A program made the position numbers and the translations under genes. 56,650 nucleotides of DNA from Trichormus sp. M33_DOE_039 (GTDB lineage: Bacteria; Cyanobacteriota; Cyanobacteriia; Cyanobacteriales; Nostocaceae), in the NCBI GenBank assembly GCA_015296085.1, contig DVDT01000051.1, positions 1 to 56,650 of the forward strand, read 5' to 3'. The first letter of the stretch is position 1; each line of letters starts with the position of its first letter. Under the pieces are notes generated by a model. The model saw only the letters and a list, made by a program, of their open reading frames with translations, did no database searches and was not told where the DNA came from. Below, piece after piece: positions 3,874 through 42,226 of this stretch.

Positions 3874-3984
3874 AAATTTAGGGGTGTAAACGTGTAAGGG
3901 TATAAGGGTGTAGGGCTTTAAGTGGAGTAATTAAGAGGAGATTTATATCCCCTCTTAACTATCTACTTCTCCTGCCTCCTGACC

Positions 3985-4060
3985 CTTCAATTTTAGATTT
4001 GTGATTTCAAATTTTAGATGGGATTGAATAATCCAAAATTCAAGATCTAAAATTATTCTG
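3985..4060. repeat. Degenerate intergenic A/T-rich repeat (TTTTAGAT units)
   Basis: The gap between the receptor and kinase genes contains repeated ATTTTAGAT/ATCTAAAAT words in both orientations. Similar words recur at 30140-30172. They look like dispersed cyanobacterial intergenic repeats; no function visible. Confidence 0.4.
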
Positions 4061-4073
4061 CCTTCTGCCTCAT

Positions 4074-7000
4074 TTAACTAACTTTAAACTTACTAGCAGT
4101 TGTTAACAAGTTTTGTGCCATATCCGATAGATCCTGGAATACAGCCGCTATTTCTTGAGATTCACCAAAAGTTTTGTTAGCAATTTCTGCAACATCTTTC
4201 ATGGAGTTAGTGACAGATACTGACTGTCCCATTTGTTTTTGAGTAGAATCAGTAATCTGGTTAATTAGCTGACTAATTTCCGCAGTAGCAGAAACGATCG
4301 CATTTAAGTTTTGCCGAGTTTCATTGACGAAGTTTGTACCTTCGACTACTTGCTGAATACCAGTTTCCATTGCTACTGCTACTTCCCCAGTTTCCTCTTG
4401 AATCTCTTGGACTAATTTTTCAATTTCAATAGTAGCGGCGGCAGATTGGCGAGACAAAGAACGGACTTCATCTGCTACCACTGCAAAGCCTTTGCCATAT
4501 TCCCCGGCGCGTGTGGCTTCAATGGCGGCGTTCAAAGCTAGTACGTTGGTTTGAGTAGCAAAATTACTAATCAAATTCACGACTTTAGAAATTTTCTGTG
4601 AAGACTCACCTAGGCGTTTAATCTTTTTGCTGGTTTGAGCCACAGTTTCGCGAATTGCTTGAATTGCTTGTACCGTCTTGTTCATGGCTGCATCACCGAC
4701 TTCAACGGTTTGGTTGGCTTGCTTAACTGCTACCTGAACTAATTCAGCACTACCTACTACAGCTTGAGTAGCATTAAGCATCTGTTGAATTTCACTCAAA
4801 GCCAGATTGATTTCGTCAGATTGTTGTTGAGCTAAATTATTTAATCCTGCAAGGGAAGCATTACTGGTGCTAGACGTTTGGGCAACTTTTTGAGCAGATG
4901 TCTGTACTTGTAGTACGATTTGCCGCAGTGCTTGCAGGGTATTGTTATAAGCATCAGCAATTGTACCTAGTTCATCTTCCGTAATTGGTGCGCGTACCGT
5001 TAAATCACCATTCAGGGCTGGTCTCACAGCTGTCAACAGTTGAATAGAACGTTGTTGCAACAATTCTTTAGCAGCTTTATCCCGCGCGGCTGCTTCTGCA
5101 AGTTGAGCTGATTGTGTCTGGAGTTGCTGCAAATATTCGGTTTGTTGTAATGCTAATCCTAGTTGGTCACCAATTCTCGCTAACAAGGCCACTTGTGATT
5201 CTTCCCAATCACGCACACCGGAATTTTGATAGGCTGCTAATAGTCCCCACAATTTTTCCCCAAAGAAAATCGGCACGATAATGTAAGCTCTGACTTCAAA
5301 CTGCTCTAGAATCTCTAAGTGGCAGGCAGCATGACCAGCTTCATAAACATCATTGACAACATAGTTTTCACCTTTGGCGTATCGACCCCCTTGAGTTTCT
5401 TGGATGTAGGTATCTTCCCAAACAGTTCTGATATCGGGGCCGACTAATTTCACCCAATTATGACCAACGGATTCAGCGACAAATACTCCGCCCCAATCTG
5501 GGTTGAAACGAAAAATTGCCACGCGATCGCATTTCAATAATTGCCTGACTTCTTGGGTACTAATCTTGAAAATTTCTTCTAAATCTGAAGCTTGGCGGAT
5601 ACGGTTGACTATCTTAGTCAAGGATTTTTCTTGTTCTGCTATCTGAGTTAATTTTTCAGTTTTAATTCTCGCCTCTTCTAGATAATCTAGTTGTGATTTA
5701 GCTAGGCTAAATTGCCCAGCAATTTGAGTTAAAAAATTGACTTCCCATGTTTGCCATTCGCGGGAACTAGTGTTTTGATATACTGCTAATAGTCCCCACA
5801 ATTTTTCGTCGAAAAAGATAGGAACAATTATGTATGCTTTGGCTTCAAATGCCTCCAATATATCAATATGACATGAAGCTAAACCGATTTTATAGATATC
5901 ATTGACGACATGATTTTCCCCTCTGACATATCGACCTCCCTTAGTGTCTTGGAGGTGAGTATCGTTGAGAACAGTTTGGAGATCAGCCCCTACTAATTTT
6001 GTCCAACCTTGACCAACTGACTCTGCCACAAACACACCACCCCAATCAGGTGTAAACTGGTAAACAACCACGCGATCGCATTTTAAAGATTGGCGAACTT
6101 CTTGAGTGGTAGCTCTAAAAATACTATCTACATCTTGTGCTTGGCGAATGCGATTAACTATCTTAGTAAAAGCTTTTTCTTTTTCAGCAATTTGAATCAA
6201 TTGTTCAGATTGCATTCGCATTTGTTCCAGATATTCTGCATGGGCGATCGCTACACCAAACTGCAACCCAATCTGACTCAGAAAGTCAACTTCCCACTCT
6301 AGCCAAGTACGAGTACCAGAGTTTTGATAAGCCGCTAATAGACCCCATAAATTTTCCCCTGTAAATACAGGAACGATCATATAAGCTTTTGCTTCAAATC
6401 TTTCTAAAATTTCTAGGTGACAAGGAGCATGATTCGTTTTGTACAGATCGTTAACGACAAAGTTTTCTTGATGGCGATAACGTCCCCCTTCTGTCTCTTG
6501 AAGGTAGGTATCTTCCCAAATTGTTTTGATTCCTGGAGCTACTAGTTTCACCCAACCATGTCCTACAGATTCCGCCACAAATTCTCCACTCCAATCGGGG
6601 TTGAAGCGATAAAGGGCGACGCGATCGCATTTTAATAATTGGCGGACTTCCTGAGTGGTGGTTTGAAAGATTTTGTCAATGTTTGATGTCCGTAAAATCT
6701 TATCAACAACTTTTCCTAATGATTGTTTAGACTGGGTGTGTAATTGCAATTCTCGGTGAAATTCAAACGCTTGTAATCTGTAAGTTAATTCTGTGGCAAC
6801 TTGCGATAATAAGGTAATTTCTACTTCTTGCCATTGCCTAGCATAAGCACAACTATTAACAGCCAGTATTCCCCATACTTTACCTGCAATAACAATGGGT
6901 AAACTTAAACTATCTTTAATTTGAAATTTATCTAATAGTTGTTTTTGATAGGGAGTAAGTTGTATTTGGTTAATATCCTCAATGGCTACAGGTTCTACGT

Positions 7001-7385
7001 AGTCGTAATTTGTATGTAAACCAAACATAATACCTGGGAGAATTTCACCCAAAGTTGGAGTCCAACCCAAGTTTCTCGATTCTGCTAAAACTGTGCCACT
7101 GTCAACAGAGTTAAATTGATAAATTAAGGCGCGATCGCAGATAATTTTTTCTCTCACTTTCCCCACAGTCACTTTTAAGACCGTATCTAAATCAGTTGCT
7201 TGACGCATATGATTGATAATATCTTGTAACTGCTGTCGCCAAGTTTTAAATTCCTGAGCGAGTGCATCTGATACTTCTTGCTTATAATTATCGTTTAAAG
7301 TAACATTATCTTTAGTTTTTTCTATTGGTTCTACTTTAGCAATTGAATGCTCATTATCATGGTTTTTATGATAGGTTATTGCCAT
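4074..7385 (-). CDS. pixJ: Soluble methyl-accepting photoreceptor with four GAF domains, three with the bilin-binding Cys-His motif
   Basis: Receptor of the operon; 1103 residues without an obvious membrane segment, so probably cytoplasmic. GAF1 spans about 55-205 and lacks the Cys-His pair. GAF2 (about 235-385), GAF3 (415-565) and GAF4 (595-745) are close repeats, each with a W-x-K-L-V segment, a GGRY segment and the canonical cyanobacteriochrome Cys-His: Cys322 (APCHLEIL), Cys505 (ASCHIDIL), Cys688 (AACHLEIL). A HAMP-like segment (about 780-835) and a methyl-accepting signalling domain with tip [18 protein letters not shown] follow. The layout recalls AnPixJ, whose GAF domains bind phycocyanobilin and sense red/green light. 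SD GAGG stands 8-11 bases before the ATG. Inferred role: light input to CheW/CheA for pilus-based phototaxis. Confidence 0.88.
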
Positions 7386-7461
7386 TTGATCAACCTCAAT
7401 TAATGATGAATTTAATAAATTAGTACTAACTAATTTATTGTAGTGATTACCAAAATTTCAA

Positions 7462-7935
7462 TTAGTTATGATGAGTATATACGGGTGAATTAAGAATAAT
7501 CTCAGCATCTAGATTAAAGATCATTTTCTCTTCATCGTTAATGAAGTATCCTTGTATAAAGGGTGATATTGATGGAGAGAATAATTCCACAGATGGTGCT
7601 TTCATTTGATGGATATCGAACAACTCAATATCCATCAATTGCCTAACTAGTAAACCTAAATACTTACCGTTTTCTTCTAGTACAATCGCCATCATTTTAG
7701 CAAGCATATTGGCTGTTTGTGACAATGGCGGATAACCAAGCATCTCATCGAGATCTACTAACCACAACATTTCATCACGCCAGTTATAAACACCCACAAT
7801 ATAACTAGGCATCTGAGGTACACCACATATATCGCCTAAAGATATTTGCAAAACTTCTGTGATATGTTCTAAAGAAATTACTGCTCTATCTCGAACTCCT
7901 AAGTTAAAACTTAGAAATTTTTCTTGATTTTCCAA
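7462..7935 (-). CDS. pixI: CheW-like adaptor (PixI type)
   Basis: A single CheW domain fills all 157 residues. CheW proteins bridge the receptor signalling tip and the CheA kinase. Visible family features are the opening FLSFNLGVRDRAVISLEHI, the central YIVGVYNWRDEMLWLVDLDEML (the G-V-x-N-x-R-x-x-x-L pattern) and a later AIVLEENGKYLGLLV strand. The gene lies 76 bp upstream of the receptor and 29 bp downstream of the CheY-like gene, consistent with one transcript. The C-terminal tail is slightly longer than a minimal CheW. Confidence 0.85.
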   Translation of the reverse strand: MENQEKFLSFNLGVRDRAVISLEHITEVLQISLGDICGVPQMPSYIVGVYNWRDEMLWLVDLDEMLGYPPLSQTANMLAKMMAIVLEENGKYLGLLVRQLMDIELFDIHQMKAPSVELFSPSISPFIQGYFINDEEKMIFNLDAEIILNSPVYTHHN

Positions 7936-7964
7936 AATTATTTTCCTTTGATTGTCAGAAATAA

Positions 7965-8327
7965 TTATTTCACAAATTTTTTCAGCGTTAATACCAACTC
8001 TTCCTGGTTAATTGGTTTAGAGAGATACGCTTCTGCGCCTAGCATATTGCCCCAAATTTTATCTACATCGCTATTCTTAGTAGAACAAAAAACGACTGGA
8101 ATCTTACTCGTATCAGGATTATTCTTCAGTTCTCTACAAATTTCAAACCCACTTTTACCGGGTAGAATCACATCCAAAAAAATTAAATCTGGTTTATTGT
8201 TGTCTATTTGTGTTTGAGCTTCTTCACTACTTGTTGCACTTATTACAGAACAACCCGCCTGTTGTAAATAACGGCTAAGAATTTCCATATCAGTTAAGCC
8301 ATCTTCAATCACTAAAACAATAGCCAT
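7965..8327 (-). CDS. pixH: CheY-like single-domain response regulator (PixH type)
   Basis: A stand-alone receiver of 120 residues. It has the acidic pair in VIEDG (Glu8-Asp9), the phospho-acceptor Asp52 in IFLDVILPG, a Thr/Ser-type site in VVFCST and the conserved Lys in SKP. It has no output domain, so it probably acts by protein contact with the pilus motor or as a phosphate sink for the CheA hybrid. It lies second in the operon, 217 bp after the PatA-like regulator gene and 29 bp before cheW. PixH and HmpB occupy this slot in related loci. Confidence 0.85.
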   Translation of the reverse strand: MAIVLVIEDGLTDMEILSRYLQQAGCSVISATSSEEAQTQIDNNKPDLIFLDVILPGKSGFEICRELKNNPDTSKIPVVFCSTKNSDVDKIWGNMLGAEAYLSKPINQEELVLTLKKFVK

Positions 8328-8544
8328 AGCAATTCCTTAATTATTTCTTATCAATTGATCGGCATAAATTCATTACTATTAAAGCCATATTAAAATAGCT
8401 TTTTAGTTTGTTATTATTTTGGTAGTTCAAGGGTAAATTTGGCTCAGAAAAAATACTTATTTTTAAGTTTCTTTATTTTCTTTTAAAAAGAGATTGTGAA
8501 TAACTAAAGCTCAATTTAAAAATAATTTAGATACTATTTAGTTG

Positions 8545-9741
8545 CTATGCTATACCTTTAGGAGCAACATCTAAGCAGGTTTGACTGTGCATAGGAGATG
8601 GTATTTTAACTGATAAATATTTACGTAAAATACTCATTACCTTATCTGTATTCACCGGTTTAGTCAGAAAATCAGTCGAGCCAACAACTTTAGCTCGAAC
8701 TCTATCTAACAATCCGTCATTACCTGTTAAGATAATCACAGGTGTATTAGTAAAAGTTGAAATGCGTCGCAACTGGGTGCAAATTTCATAACCACTAGCA
8801 ACAGGCATAATCAAATCTAAAAAAACCAAGTCGGGTTTTTCTTGAATAAGAATTGGCAAAGCCTGTACTGCATCTTGAATTTTAATAAACCTCAATCCAT
8901 GCGAGGTAATAATATCCTCCAGCATTTTACAAACTTGAGGACTGTCATCTACGCAAGCGATTAAGGGTGCATGAGCTTTTTTCGGCGGTGCAGAAATCGA
9001 GTTATTTGGAGATTGTGCTAAAACTAAGGGTAAATCTGGTACTTCCACTAACTCGATAATACCTTTAAGGACATAAGGAAGTAGAGAACGAGACACAGGT
9101 AAAACATTCTGTTTCATTTTGGCCGCTAACTCTCGCAGTGTCAGTCTGCCATTAATCAAAGTTACAAAGTTTTTGTATACTGGTGGACTTACTAGTTCTT
9201 GTAGCTGTTCTGGTCTTCTAATTACTGGTGCTAATTCAGGAAAAACATTTGCTAACCCGGCTTGTGTCCACAGATTCCATGAATCTTGCATTTGTTTCAT
9301 GGACATATCTGCACTTGTGAAACTCATAGGTGCTTCTAAGATCACCTCTTGATTCCGTTCACATTTGACAGCAACAAACTTGGTCTGTTGGGCTAAATCA
9401 AATAAAAGTTCTGCTAAAGTGTTCTCGACAATAGCATTAATTTGTTCTCTTTGAATTTTTTGTTTTTTATACAAAATTTCTAAAAGCCGATAATCCCAGT
9501 AACCAATTGCTATATCTTGTTGGCGCAACTGTATTTTATCCACATTAATTTGTGGACAATATTGAGCCATAAATCTCCGCCATCGCCGAAAAGGATGTGT
9601 TCCTCCTGTCGCCCAGACTATCCGTCCTAAACGATAGTAGAAAGTCCATTGATGCCCCTTTGAACTACTAAGAATTAACTGTCCGTTATATTGCAGGTGT
9701 GTGCAAGTTTTAAATTCATCGAGAATTTTGTTAGATTCCAT
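8545..9741 (-). CDS. pixG: PatA-like response regulator: PATAN domain plus C-terminal receiver (PixG type)
   Basis: First gene of the operon, 398 residues. The N-terminal 240 residues match the PATAN/DUF4388 pattern: a short beta-rich start (YNGQLILSSSKGHQWTFYYRLGRIVWATGG) and then a helical region with ALLFDLAQQ-like sequence. The C-terminal receiver (about 258-378) has ACVDDS, phospho-acceptor Asp309 in VFLDLIMP, ILTGND and the TKP lysine. PatA itself affects heterocyst pattern; PixG/HmpA paralogues head phototaxis operons, and the neighbours favour that role here. Nearly 1 kb of gene-free DNA lies upstream and should hold the operon promoter. Confidence 0.85.
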   Translation of the reverse strand: MESNKILDEFKTCTHLQYNGQLILSSSKGHQWTFYYRLGRIVWATGGTHPFRRWRRFMAQYCPQINVDKIQLRQQDIAIGYWDYRLLEILYKKQKIQREQINAIVENTLAELLFDLAQQTKFVAVKCERNQEVILEAPMSFTSADMSMKQMQDSWNLWTQAGLANVFPELAPVIRRPEQLQELVSPPVYKNFVTLINGRLTLRELAAKMKQNVLPVSRSLLPYVLKGIIELVEVPDLPLVLAQSPNNSISAPPKKAHAPLIACVDDSPQVCKMLEDIITSHGLRFIKIQDAVQALPILIQEKPDLVFLDLIMPVASGYEICTQLRRISTFTNTPVIILTGNDGLLDRVRAKVVGSTDFLTKPVNTDKVMSILRKYLSVKIPSPMHSQTCLDVAPKGIA

Positions 9742-22369: not shown

Positions 22370-24016
22370 CTAAGGATGAATAATTGTTGGCATTTGGTGT
22401 AATTGTGTTTGATAAACCTTGACTAATCTATCGATACCTTTAAAGCGATAATCTCCCATTTCTTGGAAGTCGTCAGGTTTTGAAATTAATTCATAAGTGG
22501 CTTCACTGATAACACATTCACTAGGAGGACAAACACCTTCCATCCTCGCAGCTAAATTAATAGTCGCACCCAGTGCTGTATATTCCACCCGTTGGGAACT
22601 CCCCACATCCCCAACAACTGCTTTACCACTATTAATCGCAATGCGTAATTGTAAAGGTTCGTGCCAGAAACCATTGGCATTGAGATGTTCTAAGCGAGTT
22701 AACATCCCTTTGGCTGCGGCTGTGGCACGATTCGCGTGGTCAGCTTGCGGTTCGGGTGCGCCAAAAAACGCCATGATACAATCACCGATATATTTATCTA
22801 AAGTACCGCCACAAGCAAACACTTCCTGTAGCATTTCTTCAAATAACTTATTCAATAATTGTGCGATCGCAGTTGGTGTTAACCTTTCAGAAATAGCCGT
22901 AAAACCAACTAAATCTGCAAATAAAATACTAATTTCACTTTCTGCCGGTAGTAAACGTCCATCCGGTAAACCACCTACTGCAATCAACTGCTGCACAACT
23001 GCCGGTGAATGATAACGTTCTAAGCGATGACGAATTACTTCTTCTGTTTTCAGCTTTTCTGCGAGCAACCAACGCTGTACACTTGATGCTACCAGATTAG
23101 CCAACGCCGAAAAAAAGCTAAGTTCTTCTTCTCCATCCTGTTCCCAATGATAAGAAGACAGATGAGCATCAGCATAAAGTACGCCCACTACTTTATTTTC
23201 ATCCCATAAAGGTACAGCCATAGCACTACGAATACCTTTGAGTAAAATGCTATGTTCACCAGAAAATCTTTCATCTTTATGGGTATCAGCAGTTTGAATT
23301 ACCACTTTTTCTTCAAAAACTTTTTGACAAATACTGCGACTAATCCAACTAGCATCTGCTAAGAGATATTTCTGGTTAGTTTTATCTCTAGTACCAGCAT
23401 TAACTAACTCTAAATGTCCACCACCTTTAACATCAATTAATAAAGCCAACCGATCAATACTACTTAGATAGCGAAATACTACTTGTTGGACTTGTGAGAA
23501 AATTTCTTCTATAGATGCGGCAGCACAGAGATTTTTAGCTATATCTACTAAGTCTTTAAGACGAGCAATGGTTTTATTTTTGTCGCCAATATCACCATCA
23601 TTACTATTAGCTTCTATCCACTGTTGTTTTAGTTGTTTAGCATTACGGAAAATTGTTCTTTGCTCGGAATTTTCGGAAATAGTTATCTGTTTAGTTGGTG
23701 GCGGTGGTGGTGGAAGAGGATTTTGAAACAATACCACCAAACTCACATTACCTAACCAAATTACATCACCGTGATGTAACTGTTGGGCTATGCCGACGGC
23801 GGTTTGATTAACCTGTGTGCCGTTTTTACTCCCCAGATCCTCAACTACCCATGTACCATCAGGCTGCTTGACAAGTTGGGCATGCTTGCGGGAAACCCCC
23901 CCAGCAGGTAGATATAAGTTACATTCCGGCAAACGACCGATTGTGAATACATCTCGATTCACAGCAACAGTTGTTTCCGTCTCTCCCTGTTGTAAGCGTA
24001 AAGTCAGTTCAGTCAT
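22370..24016 (-). CDS. cyaD: Class III adenylate cyclase with FHA and GAF domains (CyaD-like)
   Basis: Makes cAMP, a signal in Anabaena motility and respiration control. The 548 residues read: N-terminal FHA (about 1-100: TIGRLPECNLYLP, GGVSRKHAQL, DLGSKNGTQVN), a proline run, a GAF domain (about 165-320), then the cyclase domain (about 355-530) with metal-binding Asp in ILFADLVGFTAIS and KYIGDCIMAFFG, base-recognition Lys in LDKYIGD and a Thr in EYTALGATINLAARM where class IIIb enzymes carry Thr. Anabaena CyaD is described as about 546 residues with an N-terminal FHA domain, a close fit. FHA input suggests control by Ser/Thr kinases. Confidence 0.88.
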   Translation of the reverse strand: MTELTLRLQQGETETTVAVNRDVFTIGRLPECNLYLPAGGVSRKHAQLVKQPDGTWVVEDLGSKNGTQVNQTAVGIAQQLHHGDVIWLGNVSLVVLFQNPLPPPPPPTKQITISENSEQRTIFRNAKQLKQQWIEANSNDGDIGDKNKTIARLKDLVDIAKNLCAAASIEEIFSQVQQVVFRYLSSIDRLALLIDVKGGGHLELVNAGTRDKTNQKYLLADASWISRSICQKVFEEKVVIQTADTHKDERFSGEHSILLKGIRSAMAVPLWDENKVVGVLYADAHLSSYHWEQDGEEELSFFSALANLVASSVQRWLLAEKLKTEEVIRHRLERYHSPAVVQQLIAVGGLPDGRLLPAESEISILFADLVGFTAISERLTPTAIAQLLNKLFEEMLQEVFACGGTLDKYIGDCIMAFFGAPEPQADHANRATAAAKGMLTRLEHLNANGFWHEPLQLRIAINSGKAVVGDVGSSQRVEYTALGATINLAARMEGVCPPSECVISEATYELISKPDDFQEMGDYRFKGIDRLVKVYQTQLHQMPTIIHP

Positions 24017-28912: not shown

Positions 28913-30079
28913 TTAACTCACTTCATCTGTGGTTGCTTGACGTGCTGTTTGCATGGCTTGGACAAACTGCTCAAACAAGTAATCAGCGTCGTGAGGGCCT
29001 GGACTGGCTTCTGGGTGGTACTGCACTGAGAAGATGGGTAGAGATTTGTGCTTTAAGCCAGCAACGGTGCGATCATTTAAGTTGAGGTGACTAACTTCTA
29101 CGACTGCTTCTGGTAAGGAATCAGGGTCGATCGCAAAGCTGTGGTTTTGGCTGGTAATTTCTATCCTTTGCGTTAAACCCGCAGGCTGATTTAAACCCCG
29201 ATGGCCGAATTTCAGCTTAAAAGTTTCTGCCCCCAAGGCATGACCCAAAATTTGGTGTCCCATACAAATGCCAAAAATTGGTTTTTGACTTTGGAGTAGG
29301 GTTTTAGCAGTGGTAATACCTTCAGAAACGGCGGCTGGATCACCAGGCCCGTTGGAAAGGAAGATACCATCTGGATTGTATTGAAGAATCTCTGCTGCTG
29401 GTGTATCGGCAGGTACAACAATTACCCGACAGCCATAACTAGCCAAGCGGCGTAAGATATTGCGCTTCACACCAAAGTCTAAAGCTACGACTGTCAATGA
29501 TTCCTGATCATTGCTGGTTGCTTTTGGTTTAAATTCCCAAGCGGGGATTGTGGGATCTGACCATTCGTAAACTTGGCGTGTGGTGACTTCCTGAACTAGA
29601 TTTAAGCCTGCCATGTTAGGAGCTGCCTGTACCTGCTCTAGCAACTCTGCCTCATCCAAAATTTCTGTCGAAATCGCACCATTCATTGCCCCATACATCC
29701 GAATTTTGCGGGTGAGGGCGCGGGTATCTATGCCGTAGATCCCTGGAATTTGGTTTTGTTGCAGGTAATCTGGCAAGGATTGAGCCGATCGCCAGTTACT
29801 GGGCTGATGGCAAATGTTGCGGGCGATCGCACCACGGACTTGTGGCTTGGCGGATTCTTCGTCTTCTGGATTAACGCCAGTGTTCCCCAATTCAGGATAG
29901 GTGAACACGACAATTTGACCGCAGTAACTAGGGTCGGTCAAGACTTCTTGATAGCCAGTCATGCCAGTGTTAAACACGACTTCGCCGATGGTTGTTCCCG
30001 TCGCACCGAAAGACCAGCCGCGGTAAGCAGTTCCATCTGCCAAGACTAGTAGAGCAGGAATTGTGTCAGACAGGGGCAT
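28913..30079 (-). CDS. carA: Carbamoyl-phosphate synthase small subunit
   Basis: The glutaminase subunit that feeds ammonia to CarB for arginine and pyrimidine synthesis. The 388 residues have the N-terminal CarA domain ([26 protein letters not shown]) and a class I amidotransferase domain (about 200-380) with nucleophile Cys in [10 protein letters not shown] and the His-x-Glu pair in [12 protein letters not shown]. Length is normal. carB is not in this window, as cyanobacterial carA and carB are often separate. Confidence 0.97.
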
Positions 30080-32611: not shown

Positions 32612-33454
32612 TCATTTTTTATTGATTATTTTTTCACTATTATCTTTAATCTCATAATTAGTGATAAATAACTCTTTGCCTTTGGCTGCCCGTGCTTGTT
32701 TATAGTTATTCATCCCATATTGTAATTCCCAATCGTAGATATTAGCATATTTGAAATTATCACGAATTTGCGGTGAATCATCGTAAGTTATTAACCATTT
32801 ATGAGGGCATTTTCTTAATATCTCAGCAAATTTTTGATGATTGAAAGATGTATGTAAAATGCCATATTTGCCATATAATTTTGATTTGGTAGCACTGAAG
32901 TATGGCGGGTCTAAAAATAAAAATACATTTTCACCTTCTGCGTTTATTAATTCGCTATAATCCAGGTTGGTAATTTGAATATCTTTAGTTAGAATATTTT
33001 CTAACTTTCCTAAGCGTTCTATGGAAGAATCAGTAAATCTTTTATGAAAAGCTGCTTGAGAAAAACCACCTGATTCTACAGTTCCACTAAACGTAATTCT
33101 ATTGAGTACAAAAAAGCGGACTGCTCTTTCTAAATCAGATAGTCTGTTAACATCAACACTAGTTAATTCTGTAAACAATAATTTGCCATTTGTCTTTTTA
33201 TATTTAATTTGATGTACTTCTTTAACTAACCGAGATATATCAGATTGAGCAATTTTCCAGAACAGGAATAGCTCTTGATTTAAGTCATTAATCCAAAACT
33301 TTAGATGGGGAAATTTTTGCTTTAAGTAAATAAAGACTGAACCACCTCCTATAAATGGTTCACGAAAATCAGCAAAACTTTCTGGTAAGTATTCAACTAT
33401 CTGATTAATAGCTTTTGATTTACCGCCAGGGTAGCGGAGAGGACTTTTAAGCAT
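32612..33454 (-). CDS. D12-class DNA adenine-N6 methyltransferase (Dam-like)
   Basis: Transfers methyl from S-adenosylmethionine to adenine N6. In 280 residues: PLRYPGGKSKAI at the start, AdoMet motif FREPFIGGGSVF (about 30-41), and the catalytic DPPY at 182-185. This is the alpha/D12 group that contains Dam, DpnM and M.EcoRV. No restriction endonuclease gene adjoins it, so it looks solitary. A GATC-type target is plausible, because Nostoc chromosomes are known to be GATC-methylated and HIP1 contains GATC, but sequence alone does not fix the target. It is divergent from the b561-like gene with only 65 bp between the starts. Confidence 0.85.
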   Translation of the reverse strand: MLKSPLRYPGGKSKAINQIVEYLPESFADFREPFIGGGSVFIYLKQKFPHLKFWINDLNQELFLFWKIAQSDISRLVKEVHQIKYKKTNGKLLFTELTSVDVNRLSDLERAVRFFVLNRITFSGTVESGGFSQAAFHKRFTDSSIERLGKLENILTKDIQITNLDYSELINAEGENVFLFLDPPYFSATKSKLYGKYGILHTSFNHQKFAEILRKCPHKWLITYDDSPQIRDNFKYANIYDWELQYGMNNYKQARAAKGKELFITNYEIKDNSEKIINKK

Positions 33455-34253: not shown

Positions 34254-35387
34254 CTACCGTGATGAACGAAAGATGACGCGTCCGGGAATTTCTTCATTGT
34301 TAATTTTGGCATAGACTCGCAGACAGGTTAAAACTTCACCAGGGATTCCGCCGCAGTCTAGTTGTAAATCATCTTTAGTTAATGCACAAATGTCAGCATA
34401 AATTCCTGTTAGCTGACGAATTCGCACTTCGTAACCTGCATTAGTGGCGATCGCTACAATTTTTTTTAAAGCACGTCTTGATTCCTGTTGTAGTTTACCC
34501 CACCAAGAATAACGTTCGGCTGGGGGAACAAAGGTTAAGGAGTGGATGGCTTCATCCATGTCAATCCAAGCACGTAGTATTAATAAGGGATCTGTAGTTT
34601 CTTCGGCTTTTTTAGTGCGCTGGAAACGGTCTATTAATGCTTCTATATATTGGGTTCTTTGTTCTGGCTGAGAAGATAAGGGAATTACATCAAAGCTAAA
34701 TACACTCTTGAGTGCATGATATAACTCTGGTTCAAGTTCAATCAATTTAATGAATAAAACTAGAAAACCTGCTAGTAAAGTTAATTCCTCAGAAGCATAT
34801 TCTGGGATGATGTTTTTTTGCTCAAAGGCTGTTTGGGATAAACATAATCCAGGAGAAATCACTGTACCTCTGAGTCCGGGGTAAATGATTTCGTCTCTAA
34901 TGAAGGGTAAATGATAGAGTCGAGAATTATCTGCGATCGCACCTACTTCTTGAGCTAATTCTAAAGCACGTTGTCGCCAACATTCTGCCAAATCTTCAGG
35001 AACACGCAACAGTTTGCGGTGAATTTCATCCCATAAATCGGAATCTGTTTGGCTGTATAGGGGTGAGTCTCCTAAATATAAGCTGAGTTCGGAGTCAGAA
35101 TCAAATGCGGCGCGGAGATAATCCAATTTGGATTCACTTGAAGGTGGTGTAAAAGTATTAGCGTAGCTTACTGTCGGTCTTGCTTGCTCATTTACCTCTA
35201 CTTTTACTCGTACTTGTAACAGATTTTGAATCTCACGCAGCACCTCATCACAGACCTCAATACCAGGATCATTAGGACATTCTGCTTGCGCTTTTTGCAG
35301 CGTAGCTTCTAATCCATGCAGACTATACCGCAATAACTGGGCTAATGTTGAGTTTTCTATTGCCAATAACTTCTTGAGATGCTGCAT
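34254..35387 (-). CDS. Unknown 377-residue protein, third gene of the GTPase/Hsp70-like operon
   Basis: I recognise no family. The first 60 residues are predicted helical (LAQLLRYSLHGLEATLQKAQ, EVLREIQNLLQV), the middle is acidic and polar, a hydrophobic helix TLLAGFLVLFIKLIEL lies at about 225-240 without being a convincing membrane anchor, and the C-terminus is a mixed alpha/beta region ending VYAKINNEEIPGRVIF. AAAGG eight bases before the ATG fixes the start. It lies 67 bp behind the Hsp70-like gene, so the three genes very likely share a transcript. A cofactor or exchange-factor role for the Hsp70-like ATPase is only a guess from position. Confidence 0.75.
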   Translation of the reverse strand: MQHLKKLLAIENSTLAQLLRYSLHGLEATLQKAQAECPNDPGIEVCDEVLREIQNLLQVRVKVEVNEQARPTVSYANTFTPPSSESKLDYLRAAFDSDSELSLYLGDSPLYSQTDSDLWDEIHRKLLRVPEDLAECWRQRALELAQEVGAIADNSRLYHLPFIRDEIIYPGLRGTVISPGLCLSQTAFEQKNIIPEYASEELTLLAGFLVLFIKLIELEPELYHALKSVFSFDVIPLSSQPEQRTQYIEALIDRFQRTKKAEETTDPLLILRAWIDMDEAIHSLTFVPPAERYSWWGKLQQESRRALKKIVAIATNAGYEVRIRQLTGIYADICALTKDDLQLDCGGIPGEVLTCLRVYAKINNEEIPGRVIFRSSR

Positions 35388-35454
35388 GATATTACCTTTC
35401 TTATCTCATACAAAGACCCTCAGAACAACTCTTTGCTTCTCTGCGTGAGGTTTC

Positions 35455-38400
35455 TCAATGTATACCGGAAAAAGGATCGCGTTCCTTATCAACCTCATTC
35501 GGTTGTAAATCCAACTCACCACAGTAAACGCATCCTTCTTGTGTCAGACATTCTAAATCCGGTGATGTCCAGTAAGGTACGTCGCCAGCATGGATGCGAA
35601 GCATACCGCGATCGTCAATGGTGACGCGATACTGACAAGGATAATCTGTGCTGACATCGGGTTTTTTCAGTGCGCCGATGCGTATCCACTTTTTAGTATT
35701 AGTTTCCACATCGGTTTGATACATATAAAAGGTGTGCTGATTAGTGTAGGGGAAGGGAGGTAGAGGATTACTGATTAAACCGCTTCCTGGTTGGCGGATA
35801 CCATCACGTAAGTAATGAAACTGTTGCAGAGGTTTGCTACCATCTTTATCTACTTCAAATACCAAATGATAAGCATCTGGATGATCTACGGTAGCTGATT
35901 CGATGACGTTGACAGCGATATCACCATCATTCAAGTCTTTATAAGGACGTTCAACGGCGATATTCCATTGCAATTTTCCGTTAGCAAATAAAGACGATGT
36001 TTCAGACACTTGCGCTAATGCTGCACCAATATCAATTCCGGGAACATCTATTAAATAATGGGGATTTCCTTGACATAATAGAACGTTAAATTGCAGGGTT
36101 TGGTCAATCTCAAACTGAACTTTGATTTTTTTCAGGAACTCCGCTTCGTCCATCCGCAATTGTTCCATCAAGTGTTTACCGTCGAAGCTACCCCATAAAC
36201 GTAAATCTCCGTCTTCGTAGTCTTGGCGGTAAATAATGTTAGTTAACTGTATCCCTACCCAATTTGTCCGCACTTTGGCGACGTTTTCTGTGGGGGAGAG
36301 TTGATAGAGTTCCTGTCCAGCTTTGAAAACTGTCAGAAGTTCGTTGCTTTGGGTTTTGCGTTTGAAGTTGCAGGGTAGGTAATAAAACAGGTTTTTAACA
36401 TCGATTTCTAATTGGTTCGCACCTTTACGTAGCAAACCTTTTGATTCTTCGGGATCAAATCTCAGTCTCCGCAGTTTTTCAGCATAGCAAGCACCGGCGG
36501 AAGTGGCGAGTTTGGTGTATTCCAAAACAAAGGTGATGCGTTCAGGATTCCAAACGAAGTAAGGGGATTTGCTAAATTCTTGGTAAATCTGGCGTTGTAC
36601 TAGATCGAGATTGCAGGTTTTACCGGAGAGGATTAACCAATCAACTTTATGGGTATTCCAGGGATCTATATTGTTGTTGTCAGAACGCAGACGGCTTTCC
36701 ATTAAGCCCTTTGCAATTCCAATGGCTTCTTTAATCGCGGAGGAAGCAGCGCGTTCAAATTGTTGAATGTCTAAGGTGACGCAAATATTTTCGGAGTTTC
36801 TCGCCTGGAATTTTATCGCGCTTTGGGTGAGGAGTTCGGCAATTTGCTGTTCAGAAATTGTGAAGGTTGAGAGGGAATTGTCAGGTTTCTGCCCAAGTTT
36901 GAGTTTAGCAGTTTCCGCATGATCCCAGAGCGTGTAAAAGGTTTGTAGGCGTTGGGGTGCTTGTTGCCAACGGGTGGGGATAACTTTTTCAGCAGTATCT
37001 AAAGCATCTTTATAAGCTGCGTCACCTTCGGGGTTTTCTTTATCAACACATTTTAATAAACTACCAGTTTTAAATTTACCTTGTTCTAAAAAGCGTTCGT
37101 TTAATTCTGCGTTGATTAAGTCTTCTAGTTTGTCGCTTTCGATGTCGCCTCTGGTGACTGCTGTTAGTAAAAAGTCAGCGATCGCCACTTTCAATAATCT
37201 AAATACTCTCAGAGTAATTAACTCACCACCTAACTGTAAATGTCCCGAAGAACCCAATAATTTCGGAGTTAATTTATAGTAACGTCCTCCTAAACCCCGG
37301 TCTTCATGATTAGCAAAGTAGGGGGTGTTATCTTCTAAGGTGAGTTCAATTAATGCTAAGTCTGTTGTACCGCCACCAATATCTAAAACTAGAACATTTT
37401 GTGACCATTTATTATTTTCTTGGCGACAACGGGTTTTAAAAGATTCAATCCCAATATTTAGATTACCGCCAAATTCTCGCCATAAAAAGAAGATGGCGAC
37501 AGATACAGCTTCATCATAAGCTGTCTGTACGTCATCAATCCCCAATTGTTCGACTAATTGCTTAACCTCTTTCCTGACTACAGGTGGTGCGACGGTGGGG
37601 TAAGTGACGACTGCTGTTAAAAATTCTCCTTCCGAAAATCTGCGTCTAGCACGTTGACGATAATCTTCAGTTAATTCGACTAAATGCGCCCATGCGGCTT
37701 GGATGAGTTGGTTAACATTAATAATATCTTCTGAGCCATCCAACATTACAGAAAAATTTCTGTCTTGTCCAAAATAACGCTTGGGTGAATGGTGAAACCT
37801 GCTGATGATTTCTTTTAAAGAACTGCTTGTTCCTTGGGCAATTGCTTTCTTGCGATTATCTCTAGCTTCTCTTCCCATGCGTAGTTTAATAGCTTCTAAA
37901 CTTGCCACTTCTAACTCGCTGGGTATCTCTGTATCGCGGCGGTCAATATCTAAAACTACGGGGATTAAATTCTGCGATTCTAATGTCGGGACGCGGAAAA
38001 CTTCATGATAGATTTGATAGAGTTTTTTACTAACAGCACGGCGAAATTTATCGCTATTCCCTAAACATAATTCAATTTGCCGAATTGCTTCTAAAAATCT
38101 AGGTTTATTATCACTACTAAAAACTTCACTTAAACTACTGGGTGCAATTTCGAGATTTTTACTAATATCAACAATAAACTTTTCCCATTCAATTTCGCTT
38201 ACTTCTGGTAATGCAATAGCAGCTGGAGAACTCAACCACTGCGACAGGCGATCGCGTAATCTGATTTCCTGTTCTCTTGGTAAAACTTCCGCAATGGGGA
38301 CTTCAATGGGGTCGAATAGGGTCACGGTAGAATTAGATGTGCCGAAATCTACAGCTAGCCATCCCGGAAACCTTTTTTTGGGTTTGCCATTGGTTGGTTT

Positions 38401-38841
38401 TTCGCTCCGAACTTCGATAGGATTGACAACTGGATTATTGAGTATTTTTTGTTCCATAGGTAGTGACCACAGATGACAATAAGCTGCAACTTTCTGTCTT
38501 ACAGATAACAGTGGATTTCCTGAGTTATCAGAATCAAAATATTCCACCATTACCCGTAAATGACAGTTGATTGTTTGTGTTAAAGGTTGCTCTAATTTAC
38601 AAGGATACTGTTCTAATTGACCAATTTGGGAAATTTTAGGAATCTCAGAATCAAACTTTTTATACGCCTGTTGAATTTTAGTTGCTAACTCACTTGGTAT
38701 GCCTTTAACTGTGCAGGTAATTCGAGAAATATGTGGGACATTATTTCCCGCAGCTAGCAGTTGAATACTGGGTAATTCTAAATACTTCTTATGATTAACC
38801 CGCACTTGGAAGCGAGGCATAAGTTGAATTTCTACAGGCAT
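35455..38841 (-). CDS. Giant Hsp70/actin-fold ATPase (SrfB-like layout)
   Basis: A 1128-residue protein. Residues 1-155 form a beta-rich N-terminal region of unknown fold. An Hsp70/actin ATPase follows: phosphate-1 WLAVDFGTSNSTVTLFD (Asp165), the VVTYPTVAPP segment (about 411-420), AYDEAVSVAIFF (441-452), phosphate-2 VLDIGGGTTDLALIE (487-494) and the adenosine motif DWLILSGKTCNLD (734-746). Large insertions (180-400, 560-660) make it much longer than DnaK, and there is no DnaK peptide-binding domain. The C-terminus has a possible metal site, Cys1098, Cys1104, Cys1107. SD AAGGAAG sits about seven bases before the ATG. SrfB-family proteins combine such an ATPase with a GTPase neighbour, as here. 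Confidence 0.8.
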   Translation of the reverse strand: MPVEIQLMPRFQVRVNHKKYLELPSIQLLAAGNNVPHISRITCTVKGIPSELATKIQQAYKKFDSEIPKISQIGQLEQYPCKLEQPLTQTINCHLRVMVEYFDSDNSGNPLLSVRQKVAAYCHLWSLPMEQKILNNPVVNPIEVRSEKPTNGKPKKRFPGWLAVDFGTSNSTVTLFDPIEVPIAEVLPREQEIRLRDRLSQWLSSPAAIALPEVSEIEWEKFIVDISKNLEIAPSSLSEVFSSDNKPRFLEAIRQIELCLGNSDKFRRAVSKKLYQIYHEVFRVPTLESQNLIPVVLDIDRRDTEIPSELEVASLEAIKLRMGREARDNRKKAIAQGTSSSLKEIISRFHHSPKRYFGQDRNFSVMLDGSEDIINVNQLIQAAWAHLVELTEDYRQRARRRFSEGEFLTAVVTYPTVAPPVVRKEVKQLVEQLGIDDVQTAYDEAVSVAIFFLWREFGGNLNIGIESFKTRCRQENNKWSQNVLVLDIGGGTTDLALIELTLEDNTPYFANHEDRGLGGRYYKLTPKLLGSSGHLQLGGELITLRVFRLLKVAIADFLLTAVTRGDIESDKLEDLINAELNERFLEQGKFKTGSLLKCVDKENPEGDAAYKDALDTAEKVIPTRWQQAPQRLQTFYTLWDHAETAKLKLGQKPDNSLSTFTISEQQIAELLTQSAIKFQARNSENICVTLDIQQFERAASSAIKEAIGIAKGLMESRLRSDNNNIDPWNTHKVDWLILSGKTCNLDLVQRQIYQEFSKSPYFVWNPERITFVLEYTKLATSAGACYAEKLRRLRFDPEESKGLLRKGANQLEIDVKNLFYYLPCNFKRKTQSNELLTVFKAGQELYQLSPTENVAKVRTNWVGIQLTNIIYRQDYEDGDLRLWGSFDGKHLMEQLRMDEAEFLKKIKVQFEIDQTLQFNVLLCQGNPHYLIDVPGIDIGAALAQVSETSSLFANGKLQWNIAVERPYKDLNDGDIAVNVIESATVDHPDAYHLVFEVDKDGSKPLQQFHYLRDGIRQPGSGLISNPLPPFPYTNQHTFYMYQTDVETNTKKWIRIGALKKPDVSTDYPCQYRVTIDDRGMLRIHAGDVPYWTSPDLECLTQEGCVYCGELDLQPNEVDKERDPFSGIH

Positions 38842-38900
38842 TTTTTAACTTCCTTAACAGGCAAAATTCAATAATCAATAAATTTATGACTAATTACTGA

Positions 38901-41450
38901 TTACTGATTAGCCACTAAGGAATCAGAAATGTTGGCAATTTCCGTGAGGTGATGTAGCCAAGTGGGAACGGTCACTCCTGATTGGGATTCGCCAGCCGCG
39001 ATAAATCTCAGCAAGCTATCTTTTTTGGAGAAGTTTTGTAAAGTAGGAATAATTTGATCTAAAATTCCCTCTAATTCAGAATTGACTTGTTGATTAACTT
39101 CGCTGACATACTGCACCAGATGTAAGCTAGCAATGGCAGTGATTTCATCACGTAATCGTAAGACAAATAACTGGTGATTAGCTGATCTCGGTAAACCTGG
39201 ACTTTTTTCTGGCGACCAATCAAAGATTTGACCAATATTGTGTTTTTCATCTTGACGTGCTAAGGGAAACATGACTTCAGGAAGGAGAGATTTATCTTGA
39301 TGATTAATCTCTTCTAAAATTACGTCTTGCCATTTATTGGGGTCGCATCCTAACAACAATTGATAAAATAAATCAGCTTCTTCTGGGCCAAATTGCGCTT
39401 CAATTTCTTGTTCCATCTCTGGTGTCAAAATTGCCAAGATGCGATCGCGTTCTGGGGCGATGCGGTGCGATAATCTACTGAGTAAGTCTACTACAGCCTG
39501 ACGGATGCGATCGCGCGCAAATTCTTCGACTTCTTTGACTGTCTTGGCAAAGGCAGGATAAAAGTCATCGCTTTTAGTCGGGATGCTGCTATTAGTTCTA
39601 CTACCACGGTCAAATAACTTACCTGCTGCACCTTTCGATTCTGTTAGGGTAATTGTGCCATTGTTGACTTTGTTAAATAATAAAGTCCACTGACTCCAAC
39701 TAATGACTCTAAAAGTGAGTTCATCTTTTACCACATCGCTAACCACTGTTCCTCGGCGGTCTTTGAGTGGTTGTGTTCCTAAATCTTTTTGGAAATGACG
39801 ATAGGTTTTATCTAAACTTTCAATGGCATTTCTTAAGTCAACTAAAGCCTGACTATCGCCACTAGGAATCCCTTGGGTGTGAATTTCGGCAATAATATTT
39901 TTCAGGTTTTCTTGTTGTAATTTTAAATTCTCCGCCGCACGCCTAGTATCTTCATATAGTTGTTTCAGTCCGTGAGTCGCAACATGATTTTGAATCAATT
40001 CCCGTAGCTTGGCGATACCCCCATCTTGAGCAAAGTAACCCAGCTTTCTACCTAAACCGTGACGCGCATCTGATTCTAACAGGCGATCGCTCAACCTCCG
40101 CCACTTTTGTTGCAGTCGCTTCGACCTCTCCAAATACTCTGGATAATCTAAGTTCGCTAAAAACTCCGGTGAACCTGCTTTCACACTGCTAGAACGTTTA
40201 GCTAATTCCGCCAGTCCCAACAGGGGAGATAGTAAAACGATGCGGTCTTGATTAATAGTGAATGCACTTGCACCGTCGATGGTGGTTTGTAGCACTTTAA
40301 GTTTTCGCAACACCATCTCAGCTGTAAGTTGGGGGGTGTGGCTATCATTGATGAGTAAATCTAACTCCCGTTCACCGCCTTCACTTTCTAAAGGTAACTG
40401 GTCAAAACGTCCCACTCCTACCAGAATTAAATCCTTGAGGTCTTGTCCCGGACGCTGTTGTTGCATCATCGTGAAAATTTTATTGGCGCGATCGCTCCCT
40501 GGTGATTTACCATTCAGCAGTACCAGAATTGTTTGGACTTCCGCCAATTCTCGCAGCGATAAAAACGTATCTCTCGCGCCGGAGTTCGCTGCACCCAAAC
40601 CCGGAAAATCTAACAAAATAAATCTATCAGCACCAGTCACATCCCAAATTTCTTGAGAAATTCTGACTTCAATATCAATCCGTCGAATTAAAGGGAAACT
40701 ATTTTGTAATAACTTGGTGGGTAAATTTTGAGGTGGACTGGGTAAACGAATATGTGCTGGCGGTAAATCTTCAAACCGGAGAGTTTGGATAGCCATCTGC
40801 TGTTCGGCTAACTGTAAACCGTCCCGCGCTGTAGCTGCATCAATTTCGTAGCGTTTACCGCACAACGCCTCATAGGAACTATAGGCGCGTAAAAACACCA
40901 CTAATTCCCGTACTAGATAACGTAGTTCTAAGTTATTGCTGCTATTCCAAGTTTCTTGACACCAGTTGAGAATTTCGTTCCCAGAATTGAGTGTGGCTGC
41001 AGGGATAGGAGGAAGTCCTGCGGCTATGGTGCGGCAGTTAGCTTCTCCCAACATGAAGCGCAAGCACTCATTCACCCCTTCCCGACTTAAATATTCCACA
41101 GTAAAGTTACCTACCTGTGTCGTTGCAAAGCCTGGTTGGGGGATGATATGAATAGCGGTGACGTTCCCCGTCGTGGGATTTTCACTGATGGGTAAAGCGT
41201 CACCATAGCCAATTAAGCTGCCTAACAGTAAAGTTTTGCCGCTACTAAACTCTCCCATCACGCCGATTTTTACAGGCGAAGTAGCAAGGTCTACAGTTTT
41301 CTCCGCAGCTTCTCGGAGACGCAAAATACATTCATCTAAGCTAGCGGGAACCCAATCTTCTTGTTGAGAAAGATTTTGCGGAACAGAATTAATTTTTTCA
41401 AGTATAAGTTCGCCGTACTCTTTAAAACGTCCTATTTTTTCTAGTTCCAT
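38901..41450 (-). CDS. Dynamin-like large GTPase
   Basis: 849 residues from ATG 41450; the frame is open to a TTG at 41498. GTPase motifs (numbered from that TTG; subtract 16): G1 GEFSSGKT (82-89), candidate G2 Thr in NPTTGNV (about 109), G3 DFPGLG (297-302), and GVGRFDQL in the G4 place, a departure from N/TKxD. About 180 residues lie between G2 and G3, far more than in Ras-like GTPases. The C-terminal half is helical with coiled-coil-like heptads (about 500-560, 800-840); no clear membrane helix. Bacterial dynamin-like proteins remodel membranes or act in defence. It is the promoter-proximal gene, 59 bp before the Hsp70-like gene. Confidence 0.82.
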   Translation of the reverse strand: MELEKIGRFKEYGELILEKINSVPQNLSQQEDWVPASLDECILRLREAAEKTVDLATSPVKIGVMGEFSSGKTLLLGSLIGYGDALPISENPTTGNVTAIHIIPQPGFATTQVGNFTVEYLSREGVNECLRFMLGEANCRTIAAGLPPIPAATLNSGNEILNWCQETWNSSNNLELRYLVRELVVFLRAYSSYEALCGKRYEIDAATARDGLQLAEQQMAIQTLRFEDLPPAHIRLPSPPQNLPTKLLQNSFPLIRRIDIEVRISQEIWDVTGADRFILLDFPGLGAANSGARDTFLSLRELAEVQTILVLLNGKSPGSDRANKIFTMMQQQRPGQDLKDLILVGVGRFDQLPLESEGGERELDLLINDSHTPQLTAEMVLRKLKVLQTTIDGASAFTINQDRIVLLSPLLGLAELAKRSSSVKAGSPEFLANLDYPEYLERSKRLQQKWRRLSDRLLESDARHGLGRKLGYFAQDGGIAKLRELIQNHVATHGLKQLYEDTRRAAENLKLQQENLKNIIAEIHTQGIPSGDSQALVDLRNAIESLDKTYRHFQKDLGTQPLKDRRGTVVSDVVKDELTFRVISWSQWTLLFNKVNNGTITLTESKGAAGKLFDRGSRTNSSIPTKSDDFYPAFAKTVKEVEEFARDRIRQAVVDLLSRLSHRIAPERDRILAILTPEMEQEIEAQFGPEEADLFYQLLLGCDPNKWQDVILEEINHQDKSLLPEVMFPLARQDEKHNIGQIFDWSPEKSPGLPRSANHQLFVLRLRDEITAIASLHLVQYVSEVNQQVNSELEGILDQIIPTLQNFSKKDSLLRFIAAGESQSGVTVPTWLHHLTEIANISDSLVANQ

Positions 41451-42226
41451 AGAGTAGCCTGCCAAATAGGGTAATTTTCTGTGAGTTTTATAACACAAAA
41501 AAAGTCTGCAACTTATATATCTACAACTTGTTTGGCATATCTTTCGGAAGATTTTGCCATAATTTACTCTTTTAAATCAATTCTTATTGATAAATTCAAA
41601 TCTTTTGCATATCTAAAACTCTATTTTTTGATTTCCAGGTAATGGGAAGTGATAAAAATTTAGTGACAAATATAAAATAAATAATTTTATTTATAGATCA
41701 ATATAATGTTAAATAAAATTAATTGGCAACTACGTATTTATTCTAATTGGATTTAATTCTCTAGCTGCAGTCTGTATGCTACTTAAACTTTTTAATTTAA
41801 ATCGTCATAAAATGGAACAATTAATATTTTAAGCTAATAATTTTCAGTAGTATTACTAATACTCTCTGCATAGGAATGATTTAGCATATGTTTAAAATGT
41901 TCATCAATTAATATAGAAATATAGCCACAAAATTATATGTTTATATAAATTATAAAATTCATTTAAAAAATAATAGATTGTTTCTGCTAGAATCAGATGA
42001 TTTGTTTTTAAAAATCGGCTTGTATTTAATGTTCAATAAACTCAGTATACCGCTGATTTTAGTTCCTGTTATTTATGCTTTGTTTTCTGCCCAAGAGAGT
42101 GGTTATAGATAAGTTACGCTGTACTAACGGAAATAAAATTGCATTGCTATATGCACATACACATTAATCTAACTAACAAGTTAGGAAAATATAACAAATT
42201 ATCAAGAAAACTAGGGTGAGAAAGCG
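41451..42226. promoter_or_regulatory. 776-bp AT-rich region between divergent genes
   Basis: Separates the GTPase-operon start (minus) from the histidine kinase start (plus) and must hold both promoters. Very AT-rich, no open frame of note and no strong palindrome recognised by eye. Confidence 0.5.

Follow-up and report, generated by a model that had tools for sequence, protein, structure and literature searches.

Are the three neighbouring minus-strand genes in a stretch of the genome of Trichormus sp. M33_DOE_039 parts of one machine and, if so, what would that machine do? We address this question for 56,650 nt of DNA (NCBI GenBank assembly GCA_015296085.1, contig DVDT01000051.1, positions 1-56,650 of the forward strand), in the following called the window. 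Following the order of transcription, we name the genes A (a dynamin-like GTPase), B (an Hsp70-type ATPase) and C (a partner protein). Cyanobacteria that form heterocysts, i.e., nitrogen-fixing cells, are a model of bacterial multicellularity. For their lineage, PMC4365693 lists 51 specific genes that have no assigned function. We find that within the heterocyst-forming family A, B and C are largely passed on, duplicated, degraded and lost together, and we propose, with a probability of about 0.4, that they form a machine that remodels membranes during differentiation upon nitrogen starvation. The features on which the argument relies are, in window coordinates:

38901..41450, minus strand: gene A, predicted dynamin-like large GTPase of 849 amino acids (aa); open reading frame (ORF), Dynamin_N match, G motifs
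35455..38841, minus strand: gene B, predicted SrfB-related Hsp70/actin-fold ATPase of 1128 aa; ORF, SrfB profile, three nucleotide motifs
34254..35387, minus strand: gene C, family-less partner of 377 aa, predicted to be mostly helical; ORF, homologues, low-confidence model
41476..41500, minus strand: extended -10 promoter-like element TTTTGTGTTATAAAACTCACAGAAA, about 45 nt upstream of the start of A
38437..38841, minus strand: predicted beta-rich N-terminal domain of B, about residues 1-135; absent in some genera

The ORF coordinates bear out the layout given in a preliminary description of this DNA, i.e., three minus-strand genes separated by 59 base pairs (bp; A-B) and 67 bp (B-C). The frame of A is open from a TTG further upstream (38901-41498, 865 aa); its ATG at 41450, which yields the 849 aa, encodes a methionine found in every row of the 27-row alignment of A, for which the row starts were chosen by a script.

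To see how the genes are distributed, we used an evenly spread sample of 291 cyanobacterial genomes, with only cyanobacteria and no other phyla sampled, as well as 192 genomes of one family (f1), which from the locus titles we take to be the heterocyst-forming one. Each of A, B and C was found in the identical 31/291 genomes, all belonging to f1 (B by a single sequence as well as by a profile), and the other 260 cyanobacterial genomes sampled showed none of the three. When ordered by kinship, the non-matching genomes start outside f1, which implies that the 291-genome sample contains no f1 genome without trio genes. Within the family-level sample, B is present in 186/192 genomes.

We inspected 57 loci, composed of 27 named and 30 other ones, among which L002 and L059 are an identical contig. 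The named loci stem from Anabaena, Nostoc, Nodularia, Anabaenopsis, Tolypothrix, Calothrix, Chrysosporum and similar genera, which are known to form heterocysts. Genes A-B-C follow each other in one order and on one strand in 54 of these loci, and B-C gaps range from 28 to 335 bp. The exceptions are L027, whose contig ends inside B, and L082 and L085, where C does not lie beside B; in G048 and G172, the genomes of the loci with unlinked C, the gene is retained elsewhere on the same contig. Beyond this set we inspected 12 further regions from 9 genomes, and the full trio was found in 9 of these regions, that of G301 among them; the other three regions are those of G304, G405 and G335.

Loss and duplication follow the same pattern. 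Five of the six f1 genomes without B also lack A; in G309, the sole match (E 5e-4 over 48 positions) lies in a different 652-aa frame. At L114 (G304:C1:3768000-3782000), both A and B have decayed into pieces within a genome of 4.9 Mb in 4 contigs that keeps nifK. Two complete trios each are found in G294, G407 and G416. Midpoint-rooted trees of A, B and C are each deeply split with nearly identical membership. The second copy of G416 falls into the second lineage for B and C and onto the opposite side for A, there with low support (0.42). Pairwise distances correlate strongly between the genes (A-B r 0.97 over 54 loci, A-C 0.89 and B-C 0.86 over 52 loci) and also with those of TrpD (r 0.84-0.86, 23 loci), suggesting that the main lineage was inherited mostly vertically. 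The preliminary description had proposed tabulating adjacency over genomes, a check that the trio passed through its 54/57 loci as well as through co-loss and co-duplication. That the three-gene unit is real is thus well supported, and since it is kept together across f1 and is absent in the other sampled cyanobacteria, it looks like one machine.

The sequences of the parts indicate what such a machine could be made of. For A, the G1 (GEFSSGK[TS]), switch (T93/T94), G3 (DFPGLG) and degenerate G4 (GRF[DN]) motifs are invariant or nearly so in 27 rows, which by sequence identifies a dynamin-type GTPase domain. The Pfam model Dynamin_N matches window A with E 6e-6 and 26.8 bits, i.e., 0.2 bits short of the cut-off of 27, and aligns 46/168 positions. 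All 27 A members are matched at E<=1 (best 5.5e-9), and the remainder of A outside this part is matched by no dynamin model. The mean column identity of A is 77% (27 rows). The window's genome holds eight other Dynamin_N places that score better than A. A separate observation concerns L118 (G294:C58), where the frame of A comprises 1219 aa and thus about 370 residues ahead of the usual start, and where B has a repeated N-terminal stretch.

Gene B carries a phosphate 1 motif DFGTSNS (165-171), a phosphate 2 motif DIGGGTTD (487-494), 322 residues apart, and an adenosine motif LILSGKTC (736-743), each invariant in 28/28 rows. With these three motifs in correct order, B is, as far as its letters tell, an ATPase of the Hsp70/actin superfamily. 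The nucleotide-binding motifs that had been named for A and B beforehand are thus all present and invariant or nearly so in 27-28 rows. Among profiles, SrfB (PF07520) comes closest to B, in a weak but consistent manner. Window B scores E 7.4e-6 and 24.7 bits against a Pfam cut-off of 27.1, and 28/28 B members are matched at E<=1 (best 4e-6); HSP70 (26/28, best 0.0011) and MreB (26/28, best 0.072) both stay behind. The SrfB match spans about 75/992 positions and ends just beyond the second phosphate motif. A six-frame PF07520 search of 117 cyanobacterial genomes gave matches in 16, all of f1 and always inside gene B; the cut-off was passed in 3/117 genomes, the window's own standing at 27.1 with neighbours. 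The HSP70 profile covers residues 479-519 of window B only (E 0.16) and leaves the DnaK substrate domain unmatched, in agreement with the earlier statement that B has no such domain, where the result is a profile non-match and not a structure.

The predicted model of B has a mean predicted local distance difference test (pLDDT) value of 56.3, i.e., low confidence, with the first ~126 residues among the better-modelled parts. When searched with Foldseek, its seven best matches are all Hsp70 chains (E 1.3e-5 to 8.6e-4). B has a mean column identity of 78% (28 rows), and its N-terminal domain of about 130 residues is variable in occurrence, i.e., unmatched in 10/13 loci checked, partial in 1 and near-full in 2. 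B proteins that do without it (L019, L020, L075, L077-L083) have 966-997 aa, and L018 retains a short piece.

Gene C shows 45-76% identity to 26 homologues and a mean column identity of 69% (27 rows). For all three genes, column identities of this height and the order held in 54/57 loci lie far above what chance would give. Window C matches no Pfam family at E<=1, such that the unfamiliarity ascribed to the 377-residue partner holds; across the C members, Pfam gave merely scattered weak matches in a few of them (best E 0.01). Its predicted model is mostly helical with a pLDDT of 63.7 (low confidence), and a fold search with this model yielded no match at E<=0.001. Sequence searches of solved structures returned nothing useful.

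Next to the composition, expression bears on the role. Judged from protein length, the run of three and the shared restriction, A, B and C are probably alr1146-alr1148 of Anabaena sp. PCC 7120. A few genes past C, at window positions 28913-30079, lies carA (named by matches), which we take to be alr1155 and used in this mapping. Table 6 of PMC4365693 places alr1146, alr1147 and alr1148 as consecutive genes within heterocyst-specific clusters and with function unassigned. Fold changes upon nitrogen starvation after 12/21 h, printed there from Flaherty et al. 2011, are 9.1/5.3 for alr1146, 2.5/1.8 for alr1147 and 8.7/7.7 for alr1148. As relatives outside the cyanobacteria, the same paper gives one for alr1146 (Streptomyces aurantiacus), two for alr1147 (Frankia EUN1f, S. 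aurantiacus) and none for alr1148, and it marks alr1147 as absent in 'Nos2', which, going by the order of strains in that paper, is most likely Nostoc azollae. Table 4d of PMC2823733 has alr1146 as Nostocales-specific with 847 aa. The preliminary description had called the locus an undescribed system. This fits the system, as among the papers listed for SrfB/SrfC, heterocyst dynamins and PF07520, none describes such a cyanobacterial system in its title or abstract opening. For the genes it does not, since they have probably already been printed as the heterocyst-specific alr1146-alr1148, with neither domains nor a joint system or mechanism given in these entries (PMC4365693, PMC2823733).

Upstream of A, TGNTATAA is found 42-48 nt ahead of the start in 50/55 loci, compared to a mean of 0.9 for shuffled sequences (50 rounds), and is absent in five (L081-L085). 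By sequence, it resembles an extended -10 type, promoter-like element. Part of the flank is shared as well, i.e., TATAAAACTCAC occurs in 25/55 loci. The 25-base element is single-copy in the window's genome when up to 3 mismatches are allowed, and a search of that genome for a regulon sharing the 25-mer gave its own copy alone. No RNA family was found in the window at gathering threshold.

Taken together, the dynamin-like GTPase, the Hsp70-type ATPase, the helical partner and their co-inheritance point to a single remodelling machine. Under our proposal, A, B and C would act as one three-protein nucleoside triphosphatase (NTPase) machine within the genetic core of the heterocyst-forming lineage, induced when combined nitrogen runs out (2.5- to 9.1-fold at 12 h, if the mapping to Anabaena holds). 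B could serve as a switch, driven by ATP, for loading A onto a membrane, unloading it or remodelling it there, with C as an adaptor joining A and B to a target or site. The machine would then remodel membranes, e.g., at the septum or pole or in thylakoids, or guard them during nitrogen-starvation differentiation, possibly working as a distant SrfABC relative on an ordinary, non-toxin side. A stronger form states that this ATP/GTP-driven membrane-remodelling machine is lineage-defining, arose at the origin of the heterocyst formers or was captured there and retained, and is needed for proper differentiation or long-term survival without combined nitrogen; we consider this form rather unlikely.

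Several observations weigh against the proposal. The restriction to f1 may reflect ancestry and not heterocysts. A nifK gene is found in each of the 20 genomes tested, among them the six lacking B as well as G304, whose A and B have decayed; the trio is thus not strictly required for nitrogen-fixation genes to persist. The unit itself is not without gaps: the draft genome G405 (89% complete) has A and no B, the G301 region has a B split by a frameshift near residue 40, and the G335 region shows B and C with no A alongside (A was not sought elsewhere in G335). Since A-B gaps exceed 600 bp in 4/54 loci (L004, L075, L078, L080), a single transcript is not assured everywhere. With regard to expression, the correspondence to alr1146-alr1148 is itself a probable one, the B counterpart alr1147 is the least induced of the three in the printed values, and 434 chromosomal genes are up at least 5-fold by 12 h (PMC3141674), such that the induction of the trio says little by itself. 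NtcA-type GTAN8TAC occurs in 12/54 upstream stretches at scattered positions and TCCGGA in 4/54, neither being conserved; the canonical nitrogen-control or heterocyst motif is thus not the conserved part. The models of B and C are poor, and the Hsp70 matches of the B model have template-modelling (TM) scores of 0.13-0.15 by query and a high root-mean-square deviation. Finally, A has no strong hydrophobic segment (top 19-residue mean of 1.16).

Some of these observations would also fit a machine for membrane stress or repair in general, belonging to large multicellular cyanobacteria and not tied to heterocysts, for which nitrogen starvation would be one of several inducers. Trio-less genomes keep nifK, the heterocyst-type upstream motif is not conserved, and for dynamin-like proteins elsewhere a membrane-stabilising or membrane-remodelling action is reported (PMC9950537). 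The 260 other sampled cyanobacteria, however, do not have the trio although they are exposed to like stresses, and the printed induction follows nitrogen step-down (PMC4365693). We regard this account as somewhat unlikely.

Another trait of the same lineage could be served instead, i.e., akinetes, hormogonia, or cell-cell joining in branching or tapering filaments. Many members of the heterocyst-forming family also share akinete, hormogonium or filament traits, and A and B are both missing from five nifK-positive genomes. The sole expression data at hand, in contrast, are from nitrogen step-down (PMC4365693), and we deem such a role distinctly unlikely.

The preliminary description had also led towards phage defence, which for A would mean a system built on a dynamin-like GTPase in the manner of LeoABC or DynA. 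The LeoA model of PADLOC does match A (E 5.6e-6), the trio is lost or decayed in some genomes, and in another bacterium a dynamin takes part in defence against phages (PMC9950537). The LeoA match is, however, confined to residues 16-101 of A, i.e., the G1 region, and the Leo models leave B, C and the Dam gene unmatched (other neighbours were not scanned with PADLOC). Searching 72,556 plasmid records gave no match to A or B at E<=0.01, and among viral contigs a pattern-seeded scan turned up no relative of B. Defence systems are usually patchy and mobile, whereas the trio is near universal in its family with B in 186/192 genomes and distances that track those of TrpD. The lead is thus disfavoured and phage defence quite improbable. 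A mobile or defence element as the principal explanation was rejected on the near-universal presence, the TrpD-like distances, the empty plasmid (A, B) and viral (B) searches and the partial LeoA match.

Adjacency of three unrelated neighbours could arise from slow rearrangement alone, and flanking genes are indeed often near in the 27 named loci (Dam in 16, trpD in 15, cytochrome b561 in 14, a histidine kinase in 13). The same loci, however, hold A and B in all cases and C in 26 (the 27th contig ends within B); second-lineage trios are intact at other places, C is kept when unlinked, and A and B are mostly lost together, which renders this explanation very improbable. Finally, we give almost no credence to the trio as secreted toxins or effectors, a role claimed for Xenorhabdus SrfABC: B has SrfB as its best Pfam match and the proteins fall into size classes like those of SrfABC (PMC6950479), but the hosts are free-living phototrophs, the trio is a core presence in its family, and A has no SrfC match.

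Some observations on the surroundings stand apart from this weighing. The match to nifK is split into pieces, with breaks at recurring sites, in 7/20 genomes (G300, G308, G309, G405, G415, G172, G343), four of which belong to the six genomes without B. Breaks lie near NifK residue 435 in G300, G308, G309, G405 and G415, in the latter also near residue 94, and near residue 155 in G172 and G343. This suggests that nifK is interrupted by DNA elements, which may be excised in heterocysts. Within the window, a D12 (Dam-like) adenine methyltransferase is encoded near the trio at 32612-33454 (minus strand) and lies nearby in 16/27 named loci. Positions 289-9741 hold a chemotaxis-like cluster with a CheA-type kinase with Hpt, CheW and a receiver, a GAF-rich protein resembling chemoreceptors and a protein of 398 aa whose C-terminus carries a receiver domain. 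A 548-aa FHA-GAF adenylate/guanylate cyclase is encoded at 22370-24016 (minus strand).

For the trio, three lineage-specific genes gain a joint identity as GTPase, ATPase and partner with a conserved promoter-like element, which is a reason to study them as a unit. The closest known genes are alr1146-alr1148, which are probably the same ones. With bacterial dynamin-like proteins, i.e., bDLP1 of Nostoc punctiforme, the Synechocystis DLP, DynA and LeoA, A shares the large GTPase with dynamin-type G1 and G3; it differs in its linkage to an ATPase and a third protein and in that merely 46/168 Dynamin_N positions align. LeoABC as a whole differs by the partial LeoA match (A residues 16-101) and by LeoB and LeoC, which are matched by none of B, C and the Dam gene. 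The Hsp70/MreB actin-fold ATPases have the three nucleotide-binding motifs in common with B, and Hsp70 chains are the top structural matches of its model. In contrast, B has an extra N-terminal domain and a long C-terminal region without a match to the DnaK substrate domain, and it differs from the DnaK chaperone in that the full HSP70 model including the substrate-binding domain is not matched.

This leaves SrfB and SrfC, of which the locus had been suggested to be a cyanobacterial branch. SrfC is a GTPase of the Virul_fac family (PF10139). The B side of this suggestion is partly supported by a borderline match, with SrfB found in 28/28 B members; the A side is not, since SrfC/Virul_fac is not among the 23 Pfam families that match the 27 A members at E<=1. 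The profile searches proposed along with it thus support Dynamin_N for 27/27 A and, weakly, SrfB for B, but neither SrfC nor a convincing family for C. SrfB was not matched in 3 large alphaproteobacterial records searched, which does not show its absence. Furthermore, SrfB and SrfC had been described as a travelling pair, while the known operon srfABC consists of three genes with products of 51.3, 114.2 and 101.8 kDa (PMC6950479). This agrees with the trio in architecture, i.e., three adjacent genes (54/57 loci), in a candidate SrfB-type Hsp70-like ATPase and in size classes like those of C, B and A, such that C may correspond to SrfA. Differences are the SrfB match of about 75/992 positions near the cut-off, the A without a SrfC match, the family-less C, the order GTPase-ATPase-unknown, and the toxin context, which is not known for the trio. 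Because SrfB is borderline and SrfC unmatched, we do not call the trio a member of SrfABC, and membership is not established; the trio may nevertheless function in the manner of SrfB/SrfC, as a machine with two NTPases, and would offer a non-pathogen model for SrfB-type ATPases. If it were indeed a lineage-defining machine, a SrfB-type ATPase combined with a dynamin-like GTPase would be a general bacterial remodelling device, and the proteobacterial 'SrfABC toxin' one specialised use of it.

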